Assembly (NCBI GenBank): GCA_015178975.1
Contig: WHVD01000015.1
Coordinates: 248,001 to 312,000, forward strand
Source of the DNA: Hysterangium stoloniferum
Lineage: Eukaryota; Basidiomycota; Agaricomycetes; Hysterangiales; Hysterangiaceae
Direction of reading: 5' to 3'
DNA length: 64,000 nt
Shown here: piece by piece, positions 20,393 to 62,671 of the stretch
Numbering within the stretch: the first letter of the stretch is position 1
How the letters are laid out: each line of letters begins with the position of its first letter
The notes under the pieces: model-generated
Seen by the model: only the letters and a program-made list of their open reading frames with translations
The model's database searches: none
Told to the model about the DNA's origin: nothing
Program-made: the position numbers and the translations under genes

Positions 20393-20532
20393 CTTGGGAA
20401 TTAGGGTATTACTAGTTGCTAAAGGTGATATATTTATACTCCAGTACAACATGGTCATGTGACATCATGTGATTTTGTTGATATGACCTAATTGGAGGTA
20501 AACAATCAACAAGGTCACATGACTATTTATAG

Positions 20533-21547
20533 TGTTAAGAGTGCATACATGGAGGGTTTCTGGAGAAACCTGCAGGAAATCCAGTAGGACTTGGCTTCAG
20601 CTTATAGGCTGCACCCTTGTGAGATCATCTTGTCCAATTTCAAACAGGTGGATGGGATTCCCGGGGAGTCTGGGTGGATTTCGTGGGTTGAGAGGTTGTG
20701 GGTTGAGAGGTTGTGGGTTGAGAGGTTGTGGGTTGAGAGGTTGTGGGTTGAGAGGTTGTGGGTTGAGAGGTTGTGGGTTGAGAGGTTGTGGGTTGAGAGG
20801 TTGTGGGTTGAGAGGTTGTGGGTTGAGAGGTTGTGGGTTGAGAGGTTGTGGGTTGAGAGGTTGTGGGTTGAGAGGTTGTGGGTTGAGAGGTTGTGGGTTG
20901 AGAGGTTGGGGAGTCGAGATAGATAAGTTGGAGTTGAGTGATAGATGTGTCGGAGCCCGTGGGCTCCAACTAGTGAGAGCGGTGTAATTCAAAGAGGAAT
21001 TTAGAGTGGAAAATGTACTAAGATTACTGGGGAGAATCTAAGCCAATTTTCTGACTGGATTGTATGTACAACATCTGCCAGACTATATAGACTGTGGAAT
21101 GAATAACATACCAAATCCAGTAATAATGAAATGAAACTAGCAAAACATAAAATGGGATAAGTAAACACCAAATTTGGTGTTAGGAATGGGACGGAACAGA
21201 GCAGAGTCTGAATTGTGACAGGTCATGAAACCATAATGGGAATGGAGTGGGAGCGGAGTCCGAATTGTGACAGGTCATTTGACTATAATGGGAATGGGGC
21301 TCAGTTAGAGGGATGACAGGTTTTCCGAGCAGGGTCCGGTGACTGATGCATGGGACAGAGTTGGACATAGACAGGGATGGAGTCCGGCGGGTATTCTGGT
21401 GACTGATACATGAAGTAACGAAGTTGAATGTGGACAAGTCTGACATACAGAGTCTGGTGGGAATTCTGGTAAACTGACAGTTGGTGCATATAGGGTGTAT
21501 ATATGTAAGTTAGTGCCTGGAGTCTGGTGGGAATTCCAGTCATAACA
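20533..21547 (-). repeat. Solo LTR, family c (minus), inserted in the Tc1 element
   Basis: It starts TGTTAAGAGTGC and ends GTCATAACA, with a perfect 5-bp target duplication TATAG (20,528-20,532 and 21,548-21,552). It contains the conserved U5 motif near 20,590, a minisatellite, and the palindrome AACACCAAATTTGGTGTT (21,164-21,181). A TATA-like CTATATAG lies near 21,083. Confidence 0.9.
20685..20908 (+). repeat. 15-bp minisatellite, about 15 copies
   Basis: Near-perfect tandem copies of GGGTTGAGAGGTTGT lie inside the family-c LTR. Sister LTRs hold only a short irregular version of the same track (variants of CGACCCACGACCT at 22,420-22,470 and 23,020-23,090), so this copy has expanded. Confidence 0.95.
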
Positions 21548-30270: not shown

Positions 30271-30854
30271 TGTTACGACCCGTTCCCGGATGTTTCAATA
30301 TCCGACTTCCGGTCTCTCCATTCCCGACTTCCGATCCCCGACTTCCGACTTTGACCTCCGACTACGGAACATCATAGTTACCGTATCATCCGCGTTCTTC
30401 GTTTGTTCCGCATTTGGTAATTTGTCCGTTGACAAGTATTCACTCGTTTGTTGTTGTATTCCCGTCTTGGAATATTGTCTTCCTAATATGTCTTATTGTA
30501 TTTCCGTTTTAAGAACACTTCCGTTTCCGTCTTATTATGGTCTCAGTTTGTAGTACAATAACGAGTAGACTTATATTAGTTTCCGCGAATTTGTACTTTA
30601 CTTTAGATCTGATATCGACTTAGTTTCTTATTCCTCCTCCCGTCTTTCTGTACGCTCGATATTCGGAACTCTTCAGAACTCTGAATATCCATATCTTCCG
30701 TCGTTAGTTCACTTCCGAAATTAAGGACACTGAGCGTTTGCGTAGAGGCGCAGCACATAAGCTGAAGCCGACGTCCTGACCCTATCGACGAGTTTCCGAC
30801 TTCCCGGTGACTTCCCGATAGTTCCGGAATAAGTTCCCGACACGGCACTTAACA
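30271..30854 (+). repeat. 5' LTR of element A
   Basis: TGTTACGACC to GGCACTTAACA. A TATA-like TTATATTAG (about 30,571-30,579) lies about 30 bp before AGATCTGATAT (30,605-30,615), the presumed RNA start. The conserved hairpin motif is 30,724-30,777. Confidence 0.95.
30605..30615 (+). promoter_or_regulatory. Putative RNA 5' end / self-primer segment
   Basis: AGATCTGATAT is the exact reverse complement of 30,857-30,867 and lies a TATA-box distance downstream of TTATATTAG. In Tf1 the first 11 nt of the RNA anneal to the primer-binding site; the same geometry is seen here. Confidence 0.75.
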
Positions 30855-30856
30855 GT

Positions 30857-30867
30857 ATATCAGATCT
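30857..30867 (+). promoter_or_regulatory. Self-priming primer-binding site
   Basis: ATATCAGATCT starts 2 nt after the 5' LTR, where a primer-binding site must be. It does not begin TGG as tRNA-primed sites do, but complements 11 nt at the presumed 5' end of the RNA. Confidence 0.8.
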
Positions 30868-30888
30868 CAACTCTGCGACTCGCTCATC

Positions 30889-32112
30889 ATGGGTCCCAAA
30901 CGCAAAGCTGCTGAAGGACCATCCCAACTTCAATCCCCGTTGCAACTTTACACCACCCAACTCGAAACCCCAATTCAGCCGACAACATCAGCTTCTGTCG
31001 AAGAAGTTACCGAGGAGGTTACCGAGGTAACGAAGGACACCAATGTTCCCCACACTACCGACAACGAAGCAGAAGATCAACCGGATACATCGACAAAACC
31101 CTCCGATGATCAAACTGGAATGTTGCTTTTTAACTCCATTTCCAAATTCGCTGATTACTTGAAATCCGCTGAGGATAGTAAAGAATCATCCCGCACCGGA
31201 GTCAAAGAACCCGAACCATTTACCGGCAAGGATCCGAAAAAATTGAAGAATTTCCTTCTTCAATGCCGTTTCAGTTTCCGTGATCGACCCAATGCTTTTA
31301 AATCCGACAGTCGAAAAGTCAATTTTGCGCTCTCATATCTCAAGGATACCGCTCAGGATTGGTTCGAACCCGGACTATCCGGATTATCCGACGAGACACC
31401 CGTATGGCTCGACGACTGGGATGCTTTCGTGGAAGAACTGGAAACTAATTTCGGACCTTACGACCAATCCGGCGAAGCAGAAAACGAACTAATGACGCTC
31501 AAGATGAAGGACAATCAACGAGTTTCCGATTATCTCGTCAAGTTCAATACCCTCGCCGCACGATGTGGATGGGACGATTCCGCCCTCAGGCACCATTTCT
31601 ATATGGGACTTCCGTCACGCCTTAAAGACGAAATCTGCAAAGATGGGAAGCCAAAAACTCTCCAACTCATGCGGATGAAAGCTCAAACATCCGATGCCCA
31701 TTATTGGGAACGAAAAGCCGAGGTTTCTCGAGAGAACCCGACGGAACGTTCTCAGAACAACAAGGCGTCGACTAGCAAGTCTTCCGGCAACAACTCAGGC
31801 AATAATACCGGCTCTGGCACTAATACTGGCAAATCAAATTCCGACCGGAAGAAAGACAAGAAATCCAACAAGGAAAAACAGTCAACTTCCGACAAACCCG
31901 ACATTTCCCATTTGTTGGGTACCGACGGTAAACTCACCCCAAAGGAGAAACAACGGCGTATGGACAACGACCTCTGCCTTTTCTGCGGAAAAGGCGGACA
32001 CAAGGTTTCCGACTGTACCGTTAAATCTAGCTCTTCCAAGGCTCGCGCGGCAACTTCCACTACAACTACAACGTCTAAGGATAAACCCGCCACGGAGTCG
32101 AAAAAAGAGTAA
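30889..32112 (+). CDS. gag: Element A Gag polyprotein
   Basis: 407 residues. A disordered acidic N-terminus is followed by a retrotransposon gag domain (about residues 95-260: KEPEPFTGKDPKKLKNFL, DWFEPGLSG, RVSDYLVKFNTLAARCGW) and a Ser/Asn/Lys-rich linker. A CCHC zinc knuckle (CLFCGKGGHKVSDC, CX2CX4HX4C) sits near residue 365. Gag forms the particle and binds genomic RNA. The ATG is the first one after the 5' LTR (34 bp downstream). The stop at 32,110-32,112 directly follows an A-rich run, a plausible -1 frameshift site into pol. Confidence 0.95.
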   Translation: MGPKRKAAEGPSQLQSPLQLYTTQLETPIQPTTSASVEEVTEEVTEVTKDTNVPHTTDNEAEDQPDTSTKPSDDQTGMLLFNSISKFADYLKSAEDSKESSRTGVKEPEPFTGKDPKKLKNFLLQCRFSFRDRPNAFKSDSRKVNFALSYLKDTAQDWFEPGLSGLSDETPVWLDDWDAFVEELETNFGPYDQSGEAENELMTLKMKDNQRVSDYLVKFNTLAARCGWDDSALRHHFYMGLPSRLKDEICKDGKPKTLQLMRMKAQTSDAHYWERKAEVSRENPTERSQNNKASTSKSSGNNSGNNTGSGTNTGKSNSDRKKDKKSNKEKQSTSDKPDISHLLGTDGKLTPKEKQRRMDNDLCLFCGKGGHKVSDCTVKSSSSKARAATSTTTTTSKDKPATESKKE

Positions 32113-35100
32113 GCAACCCTCCGGAATCTACACGGACAGAGGGTTGCGTTGACTCTCTCCGTGTCTCCGAGGTTGTCCGTCTCAACGCGTCCGCTCTCTC
32201 TAATCCCGATTCATTATTTGTAAAACTCGTCTCTGACTTTCTTGGAAATTTAGTGTTCCGAGCTCTAATAGATTCCGGCTCCACACACTGTTTTGTAGAT
32301 ACCACCTTTGTCACGAAACATAATCTGAAACTCCATTCTGTTCCCGCAATTTCCTTGCGTTTGTTTGACGGCACTAGCAATACGGCAATTACTCAAGCCT
32401 GTGACATGTCTATCCGGTTCCCTTGTGGAACATCCCAGACGGTTACATTTTTCGTAACACAGTTGGACTCTAGCTGTTCGGCAGTTCTTGGATACAACTG
32501 GCTCACCCGATATAATCCGTTGATTGACTGGGTATTGGGCAGTATTACTTTCCGGACTCCCGACACTTCCGTTCCTCCTGCAGCGTCTTTTCCGGCCAAC
32601 GCCTTTTCGGCATCAACGGCATCTCCGGCTTCTATCGAAACTTCCGAGCCCCCAAAAATCTCTCTCATCAACGCTTCGGCATTTGTTAGGGCGAGTAAAC
32701 TGGATGGCTCGCAATGTTTTTCGATCAGCTTAAAAGTTGATGAAGCATCTGGACGTTTTGCAACTCCAGAATTATCCGAGCTAAAAGCCGATCTGGAAGG
32801 AGTTCCCGAAAAATACCATGATTTCGTGGACATTTTCAGTAAGCAAAAAGCTGACAGGCTTGCACCACATAGGCCTTACGACTTAAAAATCGATATTGAG
32901 CCTGGTTCAAACCCTCCGTTAGGACCTATTTACCCATTATCCCAATCGGAACTTTCGTCTATTCGGGAGTTCCTGGATGAACATTTGTCGATAGGTTTTA
33001 TCCGTCCCTCAAAGTCTCCGTATGGAGCACCCGTCCTTTTCGTCCGTAAAAAGGATGGCTCCCTTCGACTCTGTGTCGATTTCAGAGGATTAAATTCCAT
33101 CACACGGAAAGATAAGTATCCACTCCCACTCGTTACCGACTTACTCGACGCCCCACGGAAAGCTCGAATTTACACCAAAATAGACCTCAAACACGCCTAT
33201 CATTTGGTTCGAATTGCCGAGGGTGACGAATGGAAAACTGCTTTTCGGACTCGCTATGGATCCTTTGAATGGTTGGTTATGCCGTTCGGCCTTACCAACG
33301 CCCCTTCCGCTTTTCAACGTTTTGTTAATGATATATTTTCCGACATGCTTGACGTATGTGTTATAGTCTACTTGGACGACATTTTGGTATTTTCCGAGGA
33401 TCCTGCTCTTCACGATGAACAGGTCCGTGAAGTCTTCCGAAGACTCCGAAAAAATGGTCTTTTCGCCAATGGTAAAAAATGTTATTTCGACATGGATTCT
33501 ATTGAATACTTAGGTTTCATCATCGGCCCTGATGGTCTCCGAATGGATGAAACCAAGGTTCAAGTTGTCCGTGACTGGCCCGAACCACGGAAGGTCAAGG
33601 ACATTCAATCATTTTTAGGTTTCGCCAACTTTTACCGTCGTTTTATTCGGAACTACTCGGATATTACAGTACCGCTCACTCGTCTCACCCGTAAAACTCA
33701 ACCATGGGTTTTTGACGACAAATGCCGCTCCGCCTTCCAGACTTTAAAAAATGCTTTCACTTCTGCCCCGATCCTTTCCCATTGGAAACCTGATTTTCCG
33801 ATTATTGTGGAAACCGATGCTTCCGATTATGCAATTGCCGCGATTCTTTCCATTCAAGAGTCCGACGGTGAAATTCATCCGGTCGCATTTCTTTCTCGGA
33901 CACTTTCAGTATCCGAACTCAATTACGATGTTCATGATAAGGAACTTTTGGCAATTTTTGAAGCTTTCAAACATTGGCGCCATTATCTCGAAGGTTCCGC
34001 AACTCCCGTTGATGTCGTTACCGATCACAAAAATCTCGAATATTTTTCTACCACTAAACTTTTAACCCGCCGGCAGGCCCGTTGGTCTGAATTTCTTTCC
34101 GCTTTCAACATGATTATCCGTTTTCGACCCGGACGTCTTGGTGGAAAACCAGATGCCATGACTCGACGATGGGACGTCTATCCTAAAGAGGGGGAAAGTA
34201 ACTACGCTGTTGTTAATCCACATAACCTGAAACCGGTTTTTACAACGCAACAACTTTCCGCATCTATCCGAGCAACTTCCCTTTACTATCCAATTATGCG
34301 TAGCGTCATGATTATGGACATTGAACAATTACATCAAGATATCCTTTCCGCACTCACTTCCGACCCGGCCCTCAAGCCACATTTAGACATTCCCGATAAT
34401 CCCAACCAACCCCGATGGACACAAGACTCTCAAGGTTTTATCCGTCTCGATGGACGTATCTACGTTCCAGATTCCGACAATCTTCGACTCCGCGTACTTC
34501 AGTATAAACACGATCATCCAATCTCTGGACATTACGGCATCAACAATACTCTTGGTTTAATCCGTAGAGAATATACTTGGCCCAACCTCCGAGATTTCGT
34601 AACTCAGTTCTGTAAGTCATGCACCACCTGCTTACGCTCCAAAACCCAGAGGCATAAGCCATACGGCCTTCTCAAGCAACTCCCGATACCAGAAAAACCC
34701 TGGAATTCAATTTCCATGGATTTCATCGAACAACTCCCAACTTCCGAAGGCTTTACATCCATTCTAGTCGTTGTGGACCGATTCTCGAAACAAGGCATTT
34801 TCATACCCACTCATGATACAATCACGTCCTTACAATTAGCGGAACTTTTCATTATTCACGTATTTTCCAAACACGGAGTTCCATCTCACGTAACTTCCGA
34901 TCGAGGCTCCAAGTTCGTCTCCCATTTCTTCCAGGCCCTCGGAAAAGCCCTCGACATGAAACTACACTTCACCTCGGGATATCACCCAGAAGGTGATGGA
35001 CAAACGGAACGCGTTAATCAAACACTGGAACAATATCTCCGCATCTATTGTAATTACCAACAGGACAACTGGAAATCCCTTCTTCCGATCGCGGAATTCG

Positions 35101-35798
35101 CCTACAATAACTCTCCGAATGCAACCACCGGCATATCTCCCTTCTTCGCCAATAAAGGCTATAATCCGAATCTCACAGTACATTCCGAACGAGATTTGGC
35201 TTCTGTCCGTGCTCAAGAATTTATTACCGACCTCGACGAATTACATCAAGAACTTCGGAAAGCTATTTCTTCCGCACAGGAACATTATCAACGTTCCGCG
35301 GACAAAAACAGGATCCCGCCTCCTAATTTTAAAGTTGGTGATCAGGTTTTTGTAAAAGCTCAATTCTTCCGTACTACCCGACCTTCTAAAAAACTCGCTG
35401 AGAAATTCTTAGGACCTTTTGAAATTATAGCACAAGCCGGTTCACTTTCATGGACTCTCCGTCTTCCCGACAGTATGCGAGCAGTCCACCCCGTTTTCCA
35501 CGTTTCCATGTTAGAACCTTGTGTTCCTAACTCTTTCCCGGAACGTATTCAACCTCCGTTCCCTCCGGTCATCATTGATGGAGAACCCGAATTCGAAGTT
35601 TCCGAAATATTGGATTCTAAAATCGACAAACGCCGACGTACTTGTAAATTGCTCTATTTAGTTAAATGGGCAGGTTATGAAGGTACCGACGAGGAAACTT
35701 CATGGATATTGGCCACGGAACTTGGACATGCTATGGAAATTGTTACTGACTTCCACACGGCTTATCCAGGCAAACCCGGACCTTTATCATCACTCTAA
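32085..35798 (+). CDS. pol: Element A Pol: protease, reverse transcriptase, RNase H, integrase, chromodomain
   Basis: One open frame of about 1,237 codons. It has no ATG near its start, which is consistent with frameshifted expression. Counting from codon 32,253: protease LIDSGSTH (about 6-13); RT with YLDD (about 373-376); RNase H ETDASDYA (about 522); integrase zinc finger (H-H at about 753, CKSCTTC at about 787); catalytic core SMDFIEQ, TSDRGSKF and GQTERVNQ (the DDE residues); C-terminal chromodomain (about 1112-1170, LYLVKWAGYEGTDEETSWI). The chromodomain is expected to direct integration to modified chromatin. All key residues are present and there are no stops. Confidence 0.96.
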   Translation, partial: TRHGVEKRVSNPPESTRTEGCVDSLRVSEVVRLNASALSNPDSLFVKLVSDFLGNLVFRALIDSGSTHCFVDTTFVTKHNLKLHSVPAISLRLFDGTSNTAITQACDMSIRFPCGTSQTVTFFVTQLDSSCSAVLGYNWLTRYNPLIDWVLGSITFRTPDTSVPPAASFPANAFSASTASPASIETSEPPKISLINASAFVRASKLDGSQCFSISLKVDEASGRFATPELSELKADLEGVPEKYHDFVDIFSKQKADRLAPHRPYDLKIDIEPGSNPPLGPIYPLSQSELSSIREFLDEHLSIGFIRPSKSPYGAPVLFVRKKDGSLRLCVDFRGLNSITRKDKYPLPLVTDLLDAPRKARIYTKIDLKHAYHLVRIAEGDEWKTAFRTRYGSFEWLVMPFGLTNAPSAFQRFVNDIFSDMLDVCVIVYLDDILVFSEDPALHDEQVREVFRRLRKNGLFANGKKCYFDMDSIEYLGFIIGPDGLRMDETKVQVVRDWPEPRKVKDIQSFLGFANFYRRFIRNYSDITVPLTRLTRKTQPWVFDDKCRSAFQTLKNAFTSAPILSHWKPDFPIIVETDASDYAIAAILSIQESDGEIHPVAFLSRTLSVSELNYDVHDKELLAIFEAFKHWRHYLEGSATPVDVVTDHKNLEYFSTTKLLTRRQARWSEFLSAFNMIIRFRPGRLGGKPDAMTRRWDVYPKEGESNYAVVNPHNLKPVFTTQQLSASIRATSLYYPIMRSVMIMDIEQLHQDILSALTSDPALKPHLDIPDNPNQPRWTQDSQGFIRLDGRIYVPDSDNLRLRVLQYKHDHPISGHYGINNTLGLIRREYTWPNLRDFVTQFCKSCTTCLRSKTQRHKPYGLLKQLPIPEKPWNSISMDFIEQLPTSEGFTSILVVVDRFSKQGIFIPTHDTITSLQLAELFIIHVFSKHGVPSHVTSDRGSKFVSHFFQALGKALDMKLHFTSGYHPEGDGQTERVNQTLEQYLRIYCNYQQDNWKSLLPIAEFAYNNSPNATTGISPFFANKGYNPNLTVHSERDLASVRAQEFITDLDELHQELRKAISSAQEHYQRSADKNRIPPPNFKVGDQVFVKAQFFRTTRPSKKLAEKFLGPFEIIAQAGSLSWTLRLPDSMRAVHPVFHVSMLEPCVPNSFPERIQPPFPPVIIDGEPEFEVSEILDSKIDKRRRTCKLLYLVKWAGYEGTDEETSWILATELGHAMEIVTDFHTAYPGKPGPLSSL
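32101..32112 (+). promoter_or_regulatory. Candidate -1 frameshift site at the gag/pol overlap
   Basis: The gag frame reads TCG-AAA-AAA-GAG-TAA. The pol frame (-1) is open from 32,085, so the overlap is 28 nt and the A6 run is the only slippery-looking stretch in it. Shifting there yields a continuous Gag-Pol. Re-initiation is the alternative. Confidence 0.5.
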
Positions 35799-35881
35799 TC
35801 CTTGTTCTTTTCTGTTCAGTTTCCGACACTTCCATTTTCCCACTCGTTTTAGGTTTTGCAAGTCAAAAAATATTATTAAAT

Positions 35882-37036
35882 CTATCTTAAAGTCTCTGAC
35901 ACCCCAAATCCACCTTCCGTCCCAACCTCCGGCTCTTCAGCAATTTCCGCACTTTCCACCATATCCTGTACCTCTTCATCTTCACTCTCTGATTCTTCCG
36001 GCTCTTTTCCCGACCCCCATCTCCGCTCCACACACTCCGCCAATGGATCGTTCGGCTGGTTTTTCGCTTTATCGGCAAATCGTTCGGATACCGCGATTAC
36101 ACCGATACTAACCATCATCTTCTCCAGGAAATCGTTTTGCCTCCGGAAATTCCGGACCAACGAACGGAAACCTTTCTCCTGGATATCATTATGACGATCC
36201 ATTGTATCCCGCATTTTCATGACTTCCGTCCCGATAAAAACCAACGCGTCGACGGTGTCCTTGAGAAGCTCAATGCCTGTACTATCCGTTTTCGACGTTT
36301 CAGTTTCCGTAGCTTTGGCCGCTCCTGAACTTCCCGCGTCGTTAGGTTTCGGAGTCTTCTCACCTTTCGGAATTCTTTTTGAGGCAAGGGTGCACGGAAG
36401 TTTGAGAACCGCGCAAGGATAGCAAGTTCCGCCCCATTTTACCTTCTGTTTCCAACACGTCATGTTCCGTATGGAACATCGATAACACGGAGTTTCATGG
36501 ACGATTTCCATTCGTTCCGGAGCTTTGACTTTTGGTTTCTGTTTCGGAGGTTAAACAACTACCGTTTCCATTACAGATACACTTACTTTAGGACTCGAAG
36601 GCCCAGCTTCTCCCTCTACTTCCACCTCCACAGCTTTTCGCTGTACGCAACAGTTATCGGTTGGAACCACGGAAATCTATGGAATCGGACTTACCTTTCC
36701 TTCCCTTACCTCCTTACGTTTTTCCGCCGCCTCAGCTTCTTGTTGTTTCTTCACTTCTTCTTCCTTCAACCTCCGATCCTCCATCACTTTCCGCAACCTC
36801 GCCAACTCTTTTTCTTTTTCCGCCCTCGCCCGCTCCAATTCCCGCTTTTCCGCCTCCTCCGCCTCCTTCAACTCCTGCATCAACGCTTTTTCCTCCTCTT
36901 CCTGTCGTCGCTTCAACTCCTCCATTTTCTGGCGTTTTTGTTGAAGTTCTGCGACCTTCGACATCTTTTGAAGTACGGATATTTCGGTATCTGAGTCTTC
37001 CGGGGTAGTGATGAATAACGGCCGACGAATCGACAT
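35882..37036 (-). CDS. Antisense accessory gene of element A: coiled coil plus Zn(II)2Cys6 cluster
   Basis: Three exons on the strand opposite gag-pol: 37036-36695, 36640-36587 and 36538-35882, giving 350 residues. Both introns (54 and 48 bp) have GTAAGT donors and CAG acceptors and keep the frame. Exon 1 encodes a long charged coiled coil (about residues 25-112, KRQKMEELKRRQEEEE). Exon 2 is an acidic linker. Exon 3 has CYRCSIRNMTC then CYPCAVLKLPC, with Cys at about 150, 153, 160, 171, 174 and 181. This is CX2CX6CX10CX2CX6C, the exact fungal zinc-cluster spacing. A second helical region and an acidic tail follow. A TATA box (TATAAAAA, 37,092-37,085) lies about 50 bp before the ATG. The 3' end stops 84 bp from pol. 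A DNA-binding or chromatin role is inferred; an alternative is a non-regulatory zinc-binding protein. A decayed homologue lies at 60,779-61,755. Confidence 0.85.
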
Positions 37037-37084
37037 ACAAGTTGTGGTTAAAGAAACAAAAACGTTAATTCGAATATTTGGAGG

Positions 37085-37092
37085 TTTTTATA
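37085..37092 (-). promoter_or_regulatory. TATA box of the antisense gene
   Basis: TATAAAAA on the minus strand, 49 bp before the antisense ATG. The homologue in element C has TATAAAAA 50 bp before its ATG (61,805-61,812). Confidence 0.65.
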
Positions 37093-37210
37093 CTCAGAAT
37101 AACAGCCGAAACTCTCACCTCCATATTTGCGTAAATTTCACGACACATAACAATCAGCCGTCGCTTCAAACACTCAGTACCTAATCGCCTCTATGGGATT
37201 TCGGCCTAAC

Positions 37211-37220
37211 AGGGGGGTAC
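37211..37220 (+). promoter_or_regulatory. Polypurine tract of element A
   Basis: AGGGGGGTAC directly precedes the 3' LTR. Equivalent tracts end GGGAGGATAC before the LTR at 61,929 and, on the other strand, GGGAGGGTAC beside the LTR ending at 45,934. Confidence 0.8.
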
Positions 37221-37804
37221 TGTTACGACCCGTTCCCGGATGTTTCAATATCCGACTTCCGGTCTCTCCATTCCCGACTTCCGATCCCCGACTTCCGACT
37301 TTGACCTCCGACTACGGAACATCATAGTTACCGTATCATCCGCGTTCTTCGTTTGTTCCGCATTTGGTAATTTGTCCGTTGACAAGTATTCACTCGTTTG
37401 TTGTTGTATTCCCGTCTTGGAATATTGTCTTCCTAATATGTCTTATTGTATTTCCGTTTTAAGAACACTTCCGTTTCCGTCTTATTATGGTCTCAGTTTG
37501 TAGTACAATAACGAGTAGACTTATATTAGTTTCCGCGAATTTGTACTTTACTTTAGATCTGATATCGACTTAGTTTCTTATTCCTCCTCCCGTCTTTCTG
37601 TACGCTCGATATTCGGAACTCTTCAGAACTCTGAATATCCATATCTTCCGTCGTTAGTTCACTTCCGAAATTAAGGACACTGAGCGTTTGCGTAGAGGCG
37701 CAGCACATAAGCTGAAGCCGACGTCCTGACCCTATCGACGAGTTTCCGACTTCCCGGTGACTTCCCGATAGTTCCGGAATAAGTTCCCGACACGGCACTT
37801 AACA
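37221..37804 (+). repeat. 3' LTR of element A
   Basis: Reads identical to the 5' LTR over its full 584 bp and is followed by the target duplication AGAGG. Confidence 0.95.
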
Positions 37805-40258: not shown

Positions 40259-41858
40259 GTGGTACAGTTTGATCATCAGTTTACATATCAATGTGAATAT
40301 TCTTTTCATGAGCAATTTGAATAATATTGGATTGATCGATGGCAAGGTTTGATTGTGGCATGTTACACTTTACAAGGAGAAGTACCTGAATTGATATACT
40401 GATAAAACTTCACAAATATTTCTTGATCCAAGCAGCGGTTTCTTTGAACGAGCCTTCCTTTCCTGCTTTGACGAGGGGGTCGCTCTGTACGATAAATAAG
40501 GACCTAAGCACTATGTCACACACAAACCATCGACTTACCAAATCGCCTCGGACCTGTATTATGACAACATATAAAGCACCATTCAATGTCTTGCCTATGA
40601 TACAAAGCCGAAGCCATTGCTTACCGCAAAACCATGCACACACCCCTTCCAATGCACCCGTTTATACCCAGGTGCGTACTTCCCGTCCCCCAACAAATTA
40701 TCAGCGAGCTCACATGATTCCTTCGGGAACTGCCCGTCCACATCGCACGAGTTTATGAGCATTGGCGCCTTTGATTTGGCGAGAAGAGTCTCGAGGTCGT
40801 CGGGCATTTTGAGGAGGGAAGGGTGGGAGACTACTCCGACTTTGATCGTGCCCTCTTGGGCGAGGTTGAAGACGTATTTGCCTTGATGTTTGGTATATTT
40901 AGTAAGCATTGAATGATTATCAGGGAGAGGCTTTTTCTTACCGCCAAAACAATACCCAGTAGCACCAAATTCTTTGATACCACGTTCCTTGAGCGCTGCG
41001 ATGACGGGATCTAATAATGGACGGGTTACTTCGGCGGGATGTTTCCCGATCCAAGCCGGGAGGTCAAATTTGAACTGCAACCAAAAAAATAAGATGAGCA
41101 GAGATGACGAATGGATAATGGGAATATCGGACGTCTTTTTCTGTAAGGAGATTAAGGGGAACGGGATCTCCGTCGAAGTAATCGATCATGTAGACCTGAA
41201 GTTGGGCAAATTTCAGATATGGTGTTATGTAGATTTGAGATTAAAACTGAAGATATTTACTGCTACGCCATTGAGAGCGAAGTCATCGGCCTGCGAGAGA
41301 TGCATCAACTGTCTGGTTTAGATGATAGAGAGTAACGTTGATAGTACCAATAACTATGATAAGTGCTATGTTTATTATCTCTTCTTGGTTAGGACAGTGG
41401 CATTCAAAACTCACCTGCGCATTCCACAAAGACAATCCCAGAGCATCTATCAAACATGATCCATAGAAGTCACCAAAGTTATGTACAGCGTATGTGATAC
41501 ACACCTGGGAGGTACAAAAGTGCCTTCTCCTTATCATATTCCCCAGATGGAAGGGCTACATAAACATCAACACCCGCAATCTTTTCGATTGTTCCAGTCG
41601 GCGTTCCTACACAATGGAGAGGTGGGCATCCAAATCAACATTCCTATGCATGGTTATATCCTCGATTTCAAAGATCGCTGTACTTACCTTCATGACGAAC
41701 ACCTTTGATACAGTCTGAACACAGTGTAGGTTCGGAACTCATGATACTTATGAACGACGAGGAGTATTCGATGGGAGCAGTGTCTTATGAATGATTTAAT
41801 AGACGTGTCACTCTCATATATATATTTCAAATCCGGCGGCACCAGACTTACGTGTGTG
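40259..41858. repeat. Segmental duplication, copy 2
   Basis: Partner of 14,685-16,277 in the same orientation. The right boundary is followed by a GTCACGTGCAACCTATTT repeat and the left boundary abuts a Tc1-like end, so both sides are bordered by repeats. Confidence 0.85.
40410..41742 (-). CDS. Dienelactone hydrolase family protein, copy 2
   Basis: Same nine-exon structure as copy 1 with all splice sites kept, including the 15-nt exon. The catalytic Cys (GYCFGG), Asp (SCDVDGQFP) and His (CVHGFAVRG) are intact. Only scattered substitutions separate the proteins (for example DYFDGDPVPLN for DYYDGDPVPFD, and FDLPAWIG for FDLSAWIG). No disabling change was seen, so both copies could be functional. 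Upstream sequence diverges about 115 bp before the ATG, so the promoters may differ. Substrate unknown. Confidence 0.88.
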
Positions 41859-46507: not shown

Positions 46508-47138
46508 TGTGAGAGGTATGGCGAAATACACTCAGGAAATATAGTCAGATGAGCTCTTACTATATCTCCTTTATTATTTCTATTTTCTCTCTATTATTAT
46601 ATCTATAATTAGTTTGACGACCTATGTATGCGGTACATCGACTCTTGTGGGCGCACACACGCCAGACTTATGTATTCTAGCGCCCGTAGTTTAGAACTCA
46701 GACACTTTTTACACCGCAACCACGACTTACCCAGACACCCGTTAGTGTCCTGTAAGTTGTGATTGGTGTATCGTCTCGACCGTCACAGACGGGCTTTAGC
46801 TACTCATTCAAATTGAGTTTCGAACTGTATCAGTCGAAACTCAATCCCTATCTCAACTCGCGTGGACTACATCCACGCTACTCTATTATTCAACTCTCTA
46901 ACTACTCTACTTGCACTTGAGCAGTTGTCCAGAATCGCACTTAACCAGTCGATTCTGCTTATTCATTCTAGCTATCTACCTTACTTTAGATAGCTACTTC
47001 TCTCTACCGTATTGAACTAAGTAGTCAATATGCGTTCGGTCCGTATTAGACTTAGACAGTCAATACATCGTGGTATCGTACTTCAACGGTCAATATTCTT
47101 CGTATATAGAACGGTTAGAACTTCTACCACTCTTCACA
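46508..47138 (+). repeat. 5' LTR of element B (631 bp)
   Basis: TGTGAGAGGTATGG to CTCTTCACA. About 3 percent different from the solo LTR at 53,587. It begins directly after GGAGCTTGG. Confidence 0.92.
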
Positions 47139-47139
47139 G

Positions 47140-47153
47140 TGGTGATCCGGGCC
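47140..47153 (+). promoter_or_regulatory. tRNA-type primer-binding site of element B
   Basis: TGGTGATCCGGGCC begins 1 nt after the LTR. The leading TGG fits a tRNA CCA end. I do not assign the tRNA. This differs from the self-primed element A. Confidence 0.55.
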
Positions 47154-47214
47154 GGACCGCTCTTTCCCTATGAAGAAAAACATTTATTTTAACTATCAAA
47201 TTCTAAACACGTAA

Positions 47215-50202
47215 ATGACCACTGGCAAGAACCAAATGCCGAGATCCTCTGTGACCCCGAGTAGTTCAAAACCTCGTCAAAGACCTGCAAGTCTGGAACC
47301 ACCCCGTAACGTCACCATGAGGAAGTCTTCGTTGACTTTTCAAAAACCAGCTCCTCCCAGAAGTCCCGTCGAAGCAGTAGCTGGACTGTCAATGGATGCC
47401 CCTCCAAGTCCACGAGAAGAACACCCGTCAACTGAACAGTTGAACATCCCCGGAGCTAAGGTCGAAATTACCCATGCTTCTGAACCCATTCTCTCATTCC
47501 CACCTAAACAGGTCATCCTTAAGCAATTCTTTAGGGGTCATATGATTTACGCCCAGCCCATCGACTTACAATGGGATGCGTACTACACCGACCGAATTTC
47601 TACGGATCAGGTTACTCCCTTTGTGGAGGAGTACAATACGGACTACCCCCTCTTACCGGTGACTGTAGCAGTCTGGTTAGGTCGTTATCAGGCTATTTTA
47701 TCGGTGCAGGATCTATTCTTACGACCTGGAACCCTTGAGGACTTGACTCGCTTGATTCCCGAATGGTCGAGTGAAGTTACTTCTGTTATGGAAGGAGGGA
47801 GGACAGTTCTTAAACAAGAGGTGTTCTGTTCATTCCTCGAAGTGCTCCGCACACACGATGACGCGTTACGAATCCTTCATGTCCTACTCGGTGGGGATCA
47901 CATTGTCCCCAAAGTCGACTACCAGTATATATACATTCGGATGCTGGAGGAGTCTCTTAACAGGATTACTCGGAATTCTTCGTTTGCATATTTCACTTTA
48001 AGGGGTCGGTTAAGGCGAAATCAGAGAAGACTCGATAAGATGGTTTTGGAAGTGCTTTACCCTTATGGTGATTCCATCCAGGTACCCAATTCGCCCATCT
48101 CCACAACAAGTTCGTTTGTTTGTACCCTGAATGGATCTCCCGACACTCGTTTCCTTCATTCGCTCAATCGTCCCATTATTTTGCAAGACTTCCCGTCTGA
48201 CATGAGGATGCAGGTGGCGGAACATCTTCAGGAAAAAGGAATGGAAATATGCATCCCCCTCTATCAGCCTCAACCTCGTCGACCTTTGAATACGGTCGAA
48301 ATCGAGAGAGGGATCACAACGGAACCTAGCCCTACCCCCCAACAGGAAATTCACCGCTCTCGCATTGCGTTCAAACGAATCCCTGGCAATACAAACGTGG
48401 GTGATGAACCAACTATGACTAGAAATCGATCAGTCGCCAACAGGGGTCGACTGTCTTTCTCCACTGCATTCACCGAGGGTATAGCTGGTCAGGTTGCTGG
48501 TCGAGGATCGCTGAATCCAGTCGATCCTCGCCATTCCCTGCCGATCTCCTCCAACCCTTTTCTGCCATCAGGAGGACCTCCTAGTAATTCATCTGGGAGT
48601 TCTAGTACCTCAAGCTATGGAGGGAATTCGGGACATGGGGGGCATCACGGTAGAGTACCTAACTCTCCCTTTCAAACTCCGATGCAGCCTCGAGCCAGCA
48701 CGCCTATCGATGACTTACCTAAGGATAAAAGGATCGCTCTTAACACCAACGACATCAAGATCAAATGGTCAGACCTTCCCAAATACGATGGGACTCAATC
48801 CAAGGCGTTGGATTACATCATGGACATTATGAGCCTCTCGGAGATCTCTGACTCCATGAGTACATTGTTGGGAGTCGCTCTGCCAAGATGACTCACCGGC
48901 AGTGCTAAGATCTGGTGGAGCATCCTAGACCGTGAACATCGCACTGAATTTAGTCGATCTCACGGATCGTTTCTTTGGGGCATCGTAGAAGGATTACTAG
49001 GAACTCGTTGGCGCGAATCCTTGGCTCTAGAATGGGAAGCCATGAAGTTTCGACAGGCCAGTCACAATCATGAGACACCCGTTCATTCCATTCAGTGAAG
49101 GGTCAAGCTCTATCGATTCTTGTACGGGTTCCACCAAAACCAGAAAGACGAAATGCACAGACTTATCCTGACACTACCCGCGGAATGGCTCTATCTTCTA
49201 CAGGGACAACCTATCGACGACATCATGAGCTTACAGACTTACGCGAACAATTTACAAGAGGCTCTGATTAACGCTTGGGTTCAAACACATCGAGAACGTT
49301 ATCGGTTTCAGAAACCCAGAGTCATGATCGCCGAGCAAAACGAGTTGGATCCCTGGCATGAGGAGGAGCACTCTGGAAAAATTGACTCCACTAATCGAGG
49401 CCACGTCCTCCTCGGCAAACTCGAGGATAAAACCGTCCCTAGGAGATCGAACGCTAAGCAGGGTAAGAAACACGGCAAGTTCTTTTTCGAACGAAGTGAC
49501 AAGAAAAGCATCGCCAAGCCTCCGAAGGAGTGTTGGATTTGTGGGAGCTTAGAGCATTTCAAGATCGACTGCCCCCATGCGGGCAGGATGTCGCACTATG
49601 TCTCTATTAACAAGTGCTCCACGCAGAATCCAATGGAGGAGGCAGAGGATCAAAGGGCTTATGAAACGGTTTATGGATTAAGTGTGGGACAAGTACATAA
49701 CATTGATGAGGAATCAATTTTCATTTCTGTCTACCTTCCTCAGCCAGAGGACAACATCGTTTCAGACGTGAAAGCATCCTCGAATGAGAATGAGACATTG
49801 CAAGTTTATGTTTCTATATCAGACCATGATTTTCTCGAGAAAGGAGACTGGCTAGACGCTCATCGTCAGAACCGTGAAGGTCTGACTGAGATGAGAGTTT
49901 TATCGCAACCTGAACCTCCCACCATTGAGGAAATTGTCGACGAGGACGCATTTGCGAACCAATCTAAGGAAATAAATCAGACCTACGTCATAGAAGACCC
50001 CTCTGAGTCAGAGGGATCGGAGGAGAGCTTCCCCTTCGACCCAGGGCAATTACCCGACTTAATTCCTTGCGATGAGTCAGACTCTGAAGCGGACGACTCT
50101 ATTTCAAACGCTCCCAAAGTACCTAACGGTAGATGTATCAGGAGGGACATCAAACTGGCTGCAAGAAAAGAAAGCAAAAGACCTAGAATTCAATACCCCT
50201 GA
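47215..50202 (+). pseudogene. Element B gag (in-frame stops)
   Basis: A frame of about 995 codons in which TGA stops at 48,889 and 49,096 break an otherwise continuous reading (LGVALPR*LTGSAKIWWS, HSIQ*RVKLYRF). A CCHC knuckle CWICGSLEHFKIDC lies near 49,533. The N-terminal third is Pro/Ser-rich with a non-gag-like folded part; an acidic tail (EDPSESEGSEESF) precedes the stop. The gag, protease and RT parts share one frame. Confidence 0.85.
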
Positions 50203-50214
50203 TCCAGTCGACTT

Positions 50215-52650
50215 ATGAAAGAGGATTCAACTATTATCTATCGCAGAAGGGACCCTCCGGGTGGATATTCCAGTATTGGGATTTCAGCATTACACGTCTA
50301 CGGACGCGTAGGGAATTCAGAAGCCTCAAATCCTATTAAAATCAGGCTGGACGCCGGAGCTGACCTCTCCTTAATCTCGGAGGATTTCTATAAGGAACTA
50401 GAAGACCACCCTAAACTCAAGCAGGGACTCAAGCTGCACCTCATACAACTTACCGGTAATGCCAAAGTATTAGGATACGTCAACGTCCCCATTTATCTCG
50501 AGGACGACACCGGTATACTCCTCAAATTTACCGCCGAGATGTACGTTGTCCGAGGTATGACCATCCCGATCCTTCTTGGAGAAGACTTTCACGTGAACTA
50601 TGAGATCAGGACACTGCGAGACCAACCGCTGGGTTCCAGATTGATTTTGCCTGGGAGAGCAGGATCTATTCCAGCCAGTTCTTCCAAGGAGCCGCAGCCT
50701 TTAACCTTTTCGATTAGCAAGATCCCCTTTGAGGAATAAGCCAATGACTCATCTGAATTGACTTCCAAACCAGACAAAGGAGTGCGTACTGAAAGAGTCA
50801 CACGGGCCTCACAAGATTGTACTATAGAACCGGAATCAGCTTGATTAGTACCAATCTTTGTAGGAGATCTTATTGGTGACCAATGGACAGTCGAGGGAGT
50901 TGTCTTGCAGAATGACGATGGGAGTATACTAGCTGCTCCCACCACCACCATCTCTAGGGAACGTGCCGCGATACCTCTCGCTAATCCCTCTCTGATGCCA
51001 AGAATCATTAGACGAGGGGAAACCATTGGATTAATTCATGACGCGAACAAATGGGCCCAGACTCCTAGATCTTCGACTGAGAGGGCATCGATGCAGTCGA
51101 CGGCAACCAGGATCGCCCATCTCATTGAAAGTCTATCAAGAATAGAAGAGGAACGTGTTCTTAATCCTCAATCCTCTGGACTGCCCCCAGAACGGGAACT
51201 TGCAGACGATTTTGACCTGGCAGGTCCTAAAACGTCAGAGGTTGCCACCACGGAAACGTTTCGTGCGGAAGACCTGCATAAGCTGGTTAACTTAGGACCT
51301 GACATCCCTACCGAAGTCTCCTCCCGCTTGGAGTCGGTATTAACTAAGAATGTCCTAGCTTTCGGCGTAGACAGGCGACTGGGACAAGTGGATGTCAAGG
51401 TCAATGTCCCATTGAAAGAGGGCGCGCAACCTATTTCAATGTCAATGTTCCCAACCTCCCCAGCTAATAGGAAAGTCATTGATGAACAAATGGATACTTG
51501 GTTCCAACAGGGAGTAATCGAACCGTCCAAGAGTCCTTGGGGGGCACCAGCCTTTGTCGTCTATCGCAACAGGAAACCACAAGTAGTGATCGACTATAGA
51601 AAGTTGAACAGTCTAACAGTTCCCGACGAATTCCCGCTGCCACGCCAGTCGGAAATCATGCAAGCGCTTTCAGGCTCCAACATCTTATCTTCCTTCGATG
51701 CACTAGCCGGTTTTACCCAACTTGAAATGTTAGAGGAAGACAAGCCAAAGACCGCCTTCAGATCCCATCAAGGACTGTGGCAATTCAGGAGAATGCCCTT
51801 TGGACTTCGTAATGGACCTTCTATATTCCAAAGGGTTATGCAAACCATACTTGCACCTTACTTATGGATATTCTGTCTGGTTTATATTGACGACATCGTG
51901 ATCTTTTCTAAGACATGGGACGATCATCTAGAACATTTAGATCAGGTTTTACAAGCCATAATTGCCGCGGGAATCACTCTCTCGCCCAAAAAGTGCTATG
52001 TAGGGTATAATTCGATTCTACTACTAGGACATAAGGTGTCTAGACTTGGCTTTTCGACCCATCAAGAAAAGGTCGCCGCTATATTAGAATTGGCTACGCC
52101 TTCTAAGATAGCGGATCTTCAACGTTTTCTAGGAATGGTTCTGTATTTCTCTGCGTACATACCATTTTACTTCTGGACGGTCGCTCCACTTTTCAACTCT
52201 TGAAGAAAGGAGTTCATTGGAATTGGGATTCTGAACATGCCCGAGTTTTTGAGGACATCAAGGTTGCATTGAGCTCAGCTCCAGTACTCGGACACCCCGC
52301 GAGCGGTATGCCTTACCGGTTATACACGGACGCTTCGGACTTTGCACTAGGATGTTGTCTCCAACAAATACAGAAAATGGCACTTAAAGACCTTAAGGAT
52401 ACGAAAATTTATTCCCAAGCACGAGCAGCCTTCGATCAATCACGAGACGTGCTGGACGGATTCCTGGGCCGCAGATTTTAATGACACCAGTGTCACGGTC
52501 GAACGCGTTATCGCCTACTGGAGCCGTACGCTCAAGAAAGCAGAATGTAACTATTCAGCCACAGAGCGAGAAGCGTTAGCTGCTAAAGAAGGATTAGTCC
52601 ATTTCCAGCCCTTTATCGAAGGCGAACATATCCTTCTGATCACTGACCAC
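50215..52650 (+). pseudogene. Element B protease, reverse transcriptase and RNase H (disrupted)
   Basis: Aspartic protease with RLDAGADLSLIS (about 50,343; DAGA in place of DSGA/DTGA), flap and ILLGEDF. RT with YIDDIVIFS (about 51,883) and preceding KSPWGAPAFVV. RNase H with YTDASDFALG (about 52,323). Stops at 50,737 and 50,842 and frame changes at about 52,199 and 52,460 break it; the two frameshifts cancel, so only the RNase H segment is out of frame. Confidence 0.88.
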
Positions 52651-55206: not shown

Positions 55207-55401
55207 TGATCATTTCACATCCTTACGACGACAATGCTGTTTATCTACTTCTAGCTTTACCCCCCCACTTTCTTCCTCCTCGGCCTTTCACTTCAATAAC
55301 CGAGCGGAGCTTGAAATTAATATAAAATATGTAAATTCGCTAAAGAAAATTTCATTCCCCCTATCTCTTCCCTCCACGTCAACCTCTCTAATCAGTATAC
55401 T

Positions 55402-58789: not shown

Positions 58790-60050
58790 CCTCAATACGA
58801 CTCTTTCACTCATTAGAAGAGAATATACATGGCCCAGCATCCGAGATTTCATTAAGCACTATTGCAAATCTTGTACAATGTGTTTATACTCTAAATCACA
58901 GTGACACAAACCATATGGCCTACTCAAACAATTACCAATACCAGAAAAACCCTGGAACTCAATTTCTATGGATTTCATCGAGCACCTACCGGCATCCGAA
59001 GGTCATACAGCAATCCTAGTTGTTGTGGATCGGCTCACAAAGCAAAGTATTTTCATTCCAACATATGACACGATAACATCTGCACAGTTAGCTGAATTAT
59101 TTGTCACCCATGTATTTTCCAAGCATGGTGTTCCATCGCATGTCACATCCAATCACGGATCCAAGTTTGTCTCTCATTTTTTTAGGTCACTCAGAAAAGC
59201 ACTAGACATGAAATTACACTTCACTTCAGGCTATCACCCGGAAGGCGATGGCCAAACCGAACGCATGAATCAAACTTTGGAACAGTACATTTGTGTCTAT
59301 TGTGTCTATCAACAAGACAATTGGAAATCACTACTACCGCTAGCAGAATTCACATATAACAATGCACTGAATGCCACTACTGGCATTTTGCCTTTCTTCG
59401 TAAACAAAGGCTATAACCCCAATATCGCAATCCACCCAGAACATGATCTCGCATCCACCCGCACTCAAGACTTCATTACAAACCTTGATGAGCTACATCA
59501 AGAACTTCGTAAAACTATTGCAATGGCCCAAGAACGATACCAACAGTCCGCAGATAAGAATCGACTTCCACCTCCTGATTTCAAGATCAGAGACTGAGTA
59601 TTCGTTAAAGCTGAGTTTTTCCAAACTACTAGACCCTCTAAGAAGCTCTCTGAAAAATATTTAGGTCCTTTTGAAGTTATAGCACAAGCCGGCATGCTTT
59701 CATGGACACTTCGGCTTCCTGACAACATGTGTGCAGTGCACCCAGTTTTTCACGTATCTATGTTAGAACCATGTGTTGCTAACAATATACCAGATTGCAT
59801 ACAACAACCACCTCCACCCGTGATCATTGACAGAGAACCTGAATTCGAGATATCGGAGATCCTAGACTCAAAAATCAACAATTGCCGATGCTCATGCAAA
59901 TTACTTTATTTGGTTAAATGGGCTGGCTATGAAGGTACAGATGAAGAAACTTCATGGATCCTAGCTACAGAGCTCGGCAATGCCTCGGAAATCATTTTAG
60001 GGTTTCATCAAGCTTATCCGAATAAACCCGGTCCTCTAAATTCTCTATAA
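58790..60050 (+). pseudogene. Element C integrase and chromodomain fragment
   Basis: Closely similar to element A Pol from the integrase zinc finger to the C-terminus (REYTWPSIRDF, MDFIEHLPASEGH, GYHPEGDGQTERMNQ, chromodomain LYLVKWAGYEGTDEETSWI). Upstream pol is missing. TGA stops occur near 58,903 and at 59,595. The second catalytic Asp is Asn here (TSNHGSKF against TSDRGSKF), so integrase activity is lost. Confidence 0.9.
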
Positions 60051-60778
60051 GTCATCTCACATGGTACCCGACCTTTTCCCGACTATAGGAGGATAGTCAC
60101 AATTCATTGAATACACAAAATTTTATGAAAAACTCCTCATATTTTTAAGTGAGACTATTTCTCCTGGCTATAACTACATGTTTTAGGGATTTATATTTCA
60201 TTAACCCAAAACTTCATCTTTAAGACTTGTACACTCCCTTAAAATATGCACAAATGTCATGGTTATACAAGATTATCTGGGTTGTTACCTAATCTTTGGG
60301 ATAAAATACATTCTCTAGTATCTCCATGACTTTTAAAATGTCCACAAACATTATAGTTAACCAAAATTACTCGGGTTATGACTTAATCTTTGGGATAAGA
60401 TGGATTCTCTTGTATATTATACAAACTTTCAAATATAGTTCATATAATTTAAATTTATTTGGTTTAGAAAGTTAACCAGAACTATCTGGCCAACCAATCC
60501 ATGTTGTGGAATTTATCCCCAAAAGGATAATCTATATATGTTTGTTTGACTAACTTTTGTCAGATACAAGATAAATATTAATATTTCCTTATTCTCCAGA
60601 GTATCACCTGATAAACTGAATTTGATTAAATATTAATTCTACAACAAACAATATAAATATATATACTTTAGCAGACAAATAACTTTTAAAGTTTTGGGTT
60701 ATCCTCCATACCTTATGAATTCATGCTATGTTTGTTTGTTTTAAAACCATTATATTTTTTACTACCTAAAGGTTTCCT
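60051..60778. other. AT-rich 3' region of element C
   Basis: No coding sequence. Two related blocks begin CTCCATGACTTTTAAAATG / CACTCCCTTAAAATATGC with TTACCTAATCTTTGGGATAA and TGACTTAATCTTTGGGATAA, suggesting a short internal duplication around 60,230-60,420. Confidence 0.45.
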
Positions 60779-61755
60779 CTACAACCTCCCCTTCTTCTCC
60801 GGCTTCCGAACCTTCCCCCTCACCAAGGCCACTGACATCTCTTCACCAACCTTTTCTGATACCCCAACTCCAGGCCCAACTCCATTGCAACTCAACACTT
60901 TTAAATATTCAAGTTGCTCCCCAAGCGACTCAATCACACTGGTTTGTTTGTCCAACCTGACACCCAATAATTGCAGTTGCTCAGTCATGAGCCCTTGTTG
61001 TCACAGTGTCTCGAATTGGAAAGAGTCGTCTCCGAGAAATAGGTGCACATGAGGCAGTTTTGCTCCTCTAACACATCGGCCTGCCATTCTTGGTAGGACC
61101 TGTTCCCGTCGGCATCCAGGAATATGCACCCAAGCTTTTGATTGGTGCACTCTTGACAGGTGTGGCCAACCACTTCCCCATGGATGGCAAGTCCAACCCC
61201 ATTTAGTGCACCAGTTGCACTTTGGGTCATTTTTGGGCCCCGCCTTGGGGGCTTGTTTTTGTTTCTATAATCAAAAAAAAAATTAGAAAATTTTATAGCT
61301 AGGAACCCGAACCTACCTTGGAGCTCAATGGCCCCTGTACATCCTCCTCTTCCTCCTCTTCCTCTTCATCATTGGACTCTGAAGGCATCACGGCCTTGTG
61401 CTGAAAAAAAAAAAGTCAGCATGGTTCGCAAAAGAAACTGAAACTGACTTACCTTTCCCTCTCGCTTCTTTTTCACCGCCTCCTCTCATGCCCGATTGGC
61501 CTCCTGCTGCTTCTTCTTTGCATGCACCACATCCCAGTGCTTGCGCACAGCCTCTTCCACTGCCAGTTTCTTTTCCTTGGCCTCTATGGCTGCCAGCTCC
61601 TCCTTCTCCTTCCACTCCTCCTCCTCCTCGTGTGCCTTCCTTTTCTCCTCGAGCAGTCATCGATGTTCTTGCACACTAGATGGCCCACTCAGAACCGACA
61701 TGGGAGCGACTGTCAACTGAACTGGGAATGGTTTCAACCCTGAGCCAATGGTCAT
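60779..61755 (-). pseudogene. Decayed antisense coiled-coil/zinc-cluster gene of element C
   Basis: Same layout as 35,882-37,036: exon 1 61,755-61,453 (charged coiled coil ending KKKREGK, donor GTAAGT), exon 2 61,400-61,317 (acidic linker, donor GTAGGT), exon 3 61,264-60,779. Exon 3 holds CNWCTKWGWTC and, after a frame change, CQECTNQKLGC. These are the two CX2CX6C halves of a Zn(II)2Cys6 cluster, now split by an indel. Exon 1 has two TGA stops. A minus-strand TATAAAAA lies 50 bp before the ATG. It shows that the antisense gene predates the split of A and C. Confidence 0.8.
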
Positions 61756-61928
61756 GGTGGTTGAGGGAAGAGAAGTGAAAAATCAAGCACCAGTACCCCT
61801 CGAATTTTTATATGCAAATTTTTACCGAGTCACATGATGTTTTGACACACCAACCGTACTCAACAAGTTTTTATGTACAGAATCTAGATTTTTGGCCTCC
61901 TTGAGATTTCGGCCAAATGGGAGGATAC

Positions 61929-62671
61929 TGTTATGACCATGTCGCAACCCGATGGTCCCCAAGGTTATCGCCACCTATCAATGTTTCAAGTTAGCATTCA
62001 AGTCACCGCATCGGAAACCGTCGGACCCCCGATGCTGACATATGCTTTCATGGTGATCAAACTCTGTTTACACCCCCATCAAAATATACTCATACTATCT
62101 GGTTAAACTCTGATATGTCCCTTTTTATTATGATGATCCATTCTATTCTATGTTTCACATATGTCTATATATACTTGTAACCCTTGGACTATTTTCCTTT
62201 TCTTGTAATCCCGCTCTTGGTTATCTCATGGCCTCCGAACTAATCATAACCTTCCCATTCCTAGTCAAGCTTATTTGTCAATACCATTTTCCACTCTTCT
62301 CCTAGTTAGTATTTTCTAGATGCCAAATATTTGTATATGAACCCGCTGTAGTTGTAGTTACAAGGCAATCAGAATATCAACTCATAATACCCTCTTACAC
62401 CTCTAGAAGTCTTATACTAAGTATCCCACTATCCACCTTCATGTGCACTTGCCCACTCTCAGTTCCTGACCCCTTGGCCCGACACTCGACTTATCCTTCG
62501 GTTCCAATCAGTAGTTCACCGAGAAGTACTCATTAGGACTAGTCTTCGCCCATCTGAAATTTAAGGACACCCGATGGATATTTGCGAGGGCACAGCACAT
62601 AAGCTGAAGCCAAGTCCTTCCGATTGGTCCCTGTCGGCCTACCAACACTAGTCAGTTTTCAGTTCTTAACA
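61929..62671 (+). repeat. 3' LTR of element C (family b type)
   Basis: TGTTATGACCATG to CAGTTCTTAACA, preceded by the polypurine tract GGGAGGATAC. It is clearly related to the solo LTRs at 25,245 and 26,703 but CpG-depleted. U5 motif at about 62,567-62,622. Confidence 0.88.

Follow-up and report, generated by a model that had tools for sequence, protein, structure and literature searches.

In Hysterangium stoloniferum, a false truffle of the Hysterangiales (Agaricomycetes), a 64,000-nucleotide stretch of the genome (the window, by which we mean the whole of this stretch) contains a Ty3/gypsy chromovirus, here called family 1. Between the pol frame and the 3' long terminal repeat (LTR) of this element, the minus strand carries a gene of three exons encoding 350 amino acids. 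The antisense frame is a real protein-coding gene borne by the element, as judged from its conserved structure, the purifying selection acting on it, and its linkage to pol and LTR in copies across the genome. Features of the predicted protein suggest that it is probably a nuclear, DNA-binding regulator of its own element, with a zinc cluster and coiled coils.

An earlier note on this DNA had described a 350-residue, three-exon frame on the opposite strand with GTAAGT donors, CAG acceptors and a TATA box, and all of its coordinates were reproduced (Table 1). When intron 1 is read unspliced, an in-frame TAG is encountered. The cysteine spacing C-x2-C-x6-C-x10-C-x2-C-x6-C given in the same note fits residues 150–181 exactly (cysteines 150, 153, 160, 171, 174 and 181), and a Gal4-like cysteine pattern arose in 0 of 20,000 shuffles of the family 1 protein. 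Two annotated H. stoloniferum protein models, P0002 and P0003, read across the exon 2/exon 3 junction as predicted, and P0002 reads across the exon 1/exon 2 junction too.

Conservation of the gene was assessed in the whole genome (111 Mb, 554 contigs). A search with the exon 3 protein gave 986 candidate places, the best 150 of which were scored; these show 73–100% identity, and in 111 of the 150 the match is uninterrupted by stops. In an alignment of 26 copies (20 regions and 6 divergent ones), both introns keep GT..AG throughout, and the complete spliced frame is open in 17 copies. Intron lengths vary by 1–3 bases, and 16 exons differ in length from those of the window; for 11 of them the difference is a multiple of three, for the other 5 it is not. 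Given that 48 of 102 intron columns are invariant, the eight columns of splice dinucleotides would all be so by chance with a probability of 0.0017. A seventh cysteine, outside the motif, is as invariant as the six within it (26 of 26 copies).

The homologues are under purifying selection, a point on which the earlier note had made its proposal depend. The median ratio of nonsynonymous to synonymous substitution rates (dN/dS) in the antisense frame is 0.24 (range 0.15–0.47), as calculated from the 282 of 325 pairs with dS between 0.05 and 0.6, which are not independent of one another. For exons 1 and 3 this is the lowest value of the six frames, the other two frames of the antisense strand lying at 0.87–1.30. 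On the sense strand, one mirrored frame likewise has low values (0.33 and 0.31 in exons 1 and 3, and 0.00 against 0.11 in exon 2, of 18 codons), which we take as a shadow of shared third positions. Coding on the sense strand was considered and rejected, since no sense frame spans the antisense gene and the longest has 203 amino acids. For the other parts of the element, the 20 regions were compared after those with less than 90% of the respective piece had been dropped; dN/dS is 0.27 for gag (12 copies), 0.125 for reverse transcriptase (RT; 18 copies) and 0.21 for integrase–chromodomain (19 copies), and the antisense gene gives 0.22–0.25 on the copies so used. Thus, the antisense gene is held about as firmly as gag and integrase, and more loosely than RT. 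Within the protein, pooled ratios of nonsynonymous to synonymous changes (pN/pS) are highest, indicating least constraint, at residues 182–217 after the motif (0.63), and the zinc-cluster region gives 0.23.

That the gene is carried by the element, as the earlier note had claimed, was borne out by its neighbours. A match to the C-terminal end of pol lies within 1.5 kb of at least 95 of the best 150 antisense places (median gap 97 bp), and at all 95 the two are on opposite strands, tail-to-tail. The pol matches used were the best 150 of 3284 candidates, and the other 55 antisense places may pair with pol ends outside that list. Among the 20 regions, counting pieces of at least 90% length, the promoter stretch is present in 19, the integrase end in 19 and the LTR beside the antisense gene in 18; of the remaining two regions, L020 ends at a contig edge and L022 has the far LTR only.

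The gene is also found in related families. Relatives of family 2, a second and decayed element in the window, were represented by the best 150 of 749 candidate places and include a subfamily, family 3, in which both copies read (L051 and L054) have an intact antisense gene of 292 amino acids. Family 4 is a very young related family with an intact gene of 294 amino acids in L057; 40 scored copies of 718 candidates are 97–100% identical, and about 30 pol ends have equal scores among the matches listed. In families 3 and 4 the gene sits at the same place in the element as in family 1, and in all three families two phase-0 introns interrupt it at the same positions, between GK and RKA and then between SPK or SPQK and K. 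The distance from the TATA box to the ATG is 56 nucleotides in family 1, 57 in family 3 and 60 in family 4, and the cysteines are spaced as C-x2-C-x6-C-x9 or x10-C-x2-C-x6-C. Across these families the antisense proteins share 23.5–32.5% of aligned residues (32.5% for family 1 versus family 4), whereas the pol ends of families 1 and 4 are 94% identical over 52 amino acids and 87% over 165. Thus, the gene is preserved inside each family, and diverges rapidly from one family to the next.

Outside H. stoloniferum, the sole lead from our searches is a group of five Dendrothele bispora proteins (P0004–P0008; K435DRAFT_864919 and four relatives), which have the same order of parts as the family 1 antisense protein. 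A protein database search with residues 125–345 of the family 1 protein gave no match at E≤0.01 among 356 candidates. Among the best 8000 candidates by shared words, the family profile gave 3 matches at E≤1, with the Dendrothele match not significant (E 0.37), and a Dendrothele query gave 5 matches including itself, all of them from Dendrothele. A profile–profile comparison matched the two groups over 46 columns in the cysteine region with 94% probability. P0004–P0008 form a multi-copy set of uncharacterised Zn(2)-C6-like proteins whose ends are charged and prone to form helices, and they may likewise come from retrotransposon genes of this type. Among viral contigs, 66 pattern matches included no relative.

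Several features of the protein resemble fungal Zn(II)2Cys6 (Gal4-type) factors, namely the cysteine spacing, the modelled helices at C-x2-C, the basic region, further helices and an acidic end. The pattern C-x2-C-x6-C-x5-12-C-x2-C-x6-8-C, which we take to be that of Zn(II)2Cys6 proteins, is matched by families 1, 3 and 4 and by P0004, P0007 and P0008. When exon 3 was modelled by AlphaFold with six relatives, a short helix was predicted at each C-x2-C pair (residues 23–27 and 44–48), presumably as in Gal4, and a 74-residue helix after the cysteines. The mean predicted local distance difference test score (pLDDT) of this model is 65, with 68–83 in ten-residue blocks at the two short helices. 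In families 1, 3 and 4, the cysteines are preceded at a distance of 16–18 residues by a K-K-x-K/R motif. The cysteine region has a net charge of +8 to +10, the last 50 residues are acidic (-10 to -13), and no membrane-like stretch is present in the antisense proteins examined.

From these features we infer the following course of events. Transcription of the antisense gene would start from a TATA promoter of its own, located between pol and the 3' LTR, and the transcript would be spliced. Its two short introns would survive retrotransposition because the genomic RNA reads the other way and, in that direction, does not contain them as introns; we judge this argument, already made in the earlier note, to be sound. 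The product would enter the nucleus by means of the K-K-x-K/R motif beside the cysteines, dimerise through coiled coils, and bind zinc and DNA via the Gal4-like cluster. It would then regulate the element's own copies, with the LTR and the antisense promoter being activated or shielded from silencing.

A special case of such a regulator would be an anti-silencing factor like VANC of the Arabidopsis VANDAL elements, which would bind family-specific words repeated across the element and clear its own copies of DNA methylation or heterochromatin. We consider this rather unlikely. The contrast between families 1 and 4 in their pol ends (94%) and antisense proteins (32.5%) is the pattern of a fast-changing specificity factor. 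On the element strand of the family 1 LTR, the word TTCCG occurs 12 times versus 2.4 expected (0.5 per kb in the rest of the window), and over 30271–37220 it occurs 61 times versus 15.7 expected from dinucleotide shuffles. Compared with codon shuffles, it is in excess in pol, with 26 occurrences against 11.4 (first of 1024 words), in gag, with 8 against 3.1, and in the antisense gene, with 14 against 8.1 (ninth in both). As controls, a host frame has 2 against 1.3 and a frame of the other gypsy element 0 against 1.7. In the LTR part of family 4, CCG occurs 32 times versus 21.4 expected. LTR CpG positions outside TTCCG vary about four times as much as other positions (conserved 0.925 vs 0.981; 26 distinct LTRs), as methylated copies would show. 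An extension of this idea, which we put forward tentatively and think unlikely to hold, is that the lineage's spliced Gal4-like specificity factor co-evolves with CCG-containing words (TTCCG in family 1, CCGGAC and ACTCCG in family 4) scattered over LTR and genes, so that VANC-like anti-silencing would have been reached independently in retrotransposons. However, the enrichment counts are mixed across families, TTCCG not being enriched in the genes of family 3, and a link between protein and word would be conjectural.

A number of results weigh against the regulator, and the first two of them against its special case as well. CCG shows no excess in the LTR part of family 3 (17 vs 17.1 expected), and LTR TTCCG sites are no better conserved than others (0.937 vs 0.925 at CpG, 0.970 vs 0.981 elsewhere). 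The 350-residue product has no match to Pfam PF00172 in the hidden Markov model search that the earlier note had suggested as a check, and among 8 further proteins none scores above the cut-off of 21 bits, three from Dendrothele reaching only 6.8–9.4 bits. A sequence search of the PDB gave nothing below E 0.35, and its six rows include no zinc-cluster protein. Modelled as a single sequence, the protein has a pLDDT of 50 and strands rather than helices in the cysteine region. On the same copies, RT is clearly more constrained than the antisense gene (0.125 vs 0.24).

As a candidate binding motif TTCCG was rejected, its excess being real in family 1 and unsupported by LTR conservation or by family 3. 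In the genome as a whole, PF00172 detects 83 places at E≤10, 66 of them over the cut-off; among the matches listed, one of the 83 coincides with a copy of the antisense gene, in family 2, at a sub-threshold 16.9 bits. The identification as a Gal4-type zinc cluster holds for the spacing and fails for PF00172, which does not match the family 1 protein. The spacing and a model of moderate confidence are the two grounds that suggest Gal4-type kinship; we do not file the antisense protein as a PF00172 member, although it may work like one. Likewise, of the proposal that the element carries its own DNA-binding or chromatin factor, the element-borne gene under purifying selection stands, and the DNA-binding or chromatin role is what we infer.

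Other roles can be envisaged for the gene. It could serve repression or copy-number control, in the manner of HBZ or through antisense double-stranded RNA (dsRNA), the product damping sense transcription. The antisense position would suit this, and a review puts forward dsRNA and protein roles next to each other (PMC7264820); we nevertheless regard it as improbable, and a pure RNA role would leave the dN/dS of 0.24 and the kept exon–intron structure unexplained. A nucleic-acid chaperone, or a particle or pre-integration factor concerned with nuclear import or targeting, would also be served by a basic cysteine region with helices. However, the gene has a separate antisense TATA promoter, its six-cysteine spacing is unlike a CCHC knuckle, and gag already has a knuckle-like stretch of its own (scoring under the Pfam cut-off), and such a role instead of a transcription factor seems to us quite unlikely. 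Finally, this stretch has long frames on both strands, as might be expected if the antisense frame were open by chance, or stemmed from a single capture of part of a host gene. The number of candidate places, which runs into hundreds, the two other diverged groups of families, the selection and the conserved introns rule out chance and make this explanation as a whole scarcely credible. A distant host homologue of the gene may exist, the genome matches scored being the best 150 of longer lists.

Similar arrangements exist in other systems. HBZ of human T-cell leukaemia virus type 1 is spliced and has a bZIP domain; it differs from the antisense protein in that domain and in belonging to a human virus, and we know of no homology between the two. 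It is antisense and nuclear (PMC11963269), as are the placement observed and the location proposed here. VANC is element-borne like the antisense gene, and related VANC proteins act on different targets according to the abstract of PMC5735166; VANDALs are DNA transposons, another class of element, and the likeness is one of description. That plant elements can carry antisense genes at this location, between pol and the 3' LTR, is established knowledge (PMC7264820, PMC11963269), and the former paper, a review, calls their roles unknown. The plant Ty3/gypsy antisense open reading frames (aORF-3R) of this kind include Grande gene23, RIRE2, Retand (TRP28) and PvRetro13, and the words zinc and intron are absent from the main text of PMC11963269. 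In Boty/BcGypsy1, a chromovirus of Botrytis cinerea, brtn is an antisense additional gene of a fungal chromodomain element, and neither introns nor a zinc cluster is mentioned for it in the passages of PMC8365987 and PMC4227169. Both aORF-3R and brtn are set apart from the present gene by description. The earlier note knew of no standard description of such a gene in fungal chromoviruses; this has to be narrowed, since on the evidence of those passages brtn is already antisense there, and it stands for the introns and zinc cluster, which we found in no report. More generally, no spliced zinc-cluster antisense retrotransposon gene was reported in the literature searched, which leaves subscription papers largely outside it. 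As far as our searches show, the introns, the zinc cluster and the conservation across families are new.

The family 1 element of the window is an intact, young chromovirus. Its LTRs are identical over 584/584 bp and AGAGG forms the outer flank on both sides; it has the LTRs, gag, protease–RT–RNase H–integrase order and chromodomain at the end of pol by which chromoviruses are recognised (Pfam Chromo 28 bits, cut-off 25.1). Immediately after the 5' LTR is a candidate self-priming site with perfect complementarity to part of that LTR. The 11-nt complementarity suggests self-priming of the Tf1 type, which we take as the model for this site, and also that the transcript begins near 30605. Another, distinct gypsy element occupies 46508–57900; its pol, as read from translation, ends in a chromodomain-like part, and after it there is a long, proline-rich and charged extra frame on the sense strand (55321–56448). 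Elsewhere in the window, about 1.4 kb is duplicated with 95–99% identity (14826–16198 and 40405–41785) and includes a frame that reads in translation as dienelactone-hydrolase-like, and short tandem repeats at 20523–20987 give a glycine-cysteine-rich open frame with GCGLR repeats.

Table 1 Features of the family 1 element, its antisense gene and the related family 2 element in the window.
Feature	Position	Strand	Remarks
Antisense exon 1	36695..37036	-	342 nt; amino acids 1-114; charged, helix-prone
Intron 1	36641..36694	-	54 nt; GTAAGT..CAG; GT..AG in 26/26 copies
Antisense exon 2	36587..36640	-	54 nt; amino acids 115-132; RKA...GPSSPK
Intron 2	36539..36586	-	48 nt; GTAAGT..CAG; GT..AG in 26/26 copies
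Antisense exon 3	35882..36538	-	657 nt including stop; zinc-cluster-like motif, predicted helix, acidic tail
Six-cysteine motif C-x2-C-x6-C-x10-C-x2-C-x6-C	36392..36487	-	amino acids 150-181; all six cysteines invariant in 26/26 copies
TATAAAA of antisense gene	37086..37092	-	starts 56 nt before ATG
Ty3/gypsy chromovirus, whole element, family 1	30271..37804	+	identical 584-bp LTRs, AGAGG flanks, Pfam domains
5' LTR, family 1	30271..30854	+	
Putative self-priming site, family 1	30857..30867	+	11 nt complementary to LTR 30605-30615
gag, family 1	30889..32112	+	Pfam Retrotrans_gag 2.2e-14, Ty3_capsid
pol frame, family 1	32085..35798	+	protease, RT, RNase H, integrase, chromodomain (Pfam)
3' LTR, family 1	37221..37804	+	
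Decayed related element, family 2 (end of pol with 3' internal part)	58790..61930	+	74% to family 1 pol over 300 nt
Antisense-gene remnant in family 2 element	60780..61760	-	frame broken; homologous to family 1 gene

Retrotransposons normally lose introns, and an antisense gene with two conserved introns shows how an element can keep a gene with introns; here, selection maintains such a gene in several element families that share a genome. If it is true that the product binds its own LTR, it would be a fungal retroelement counterpart of HBZ or VANC, and the conflict between element and silencing would become testable in mushrooms. Two Hysterangium models match antisense exons, a warning that some entries labelled hypothetical or Zn(2)-C6 in the annotation of mushroom genomes may belong to retrotransposons.
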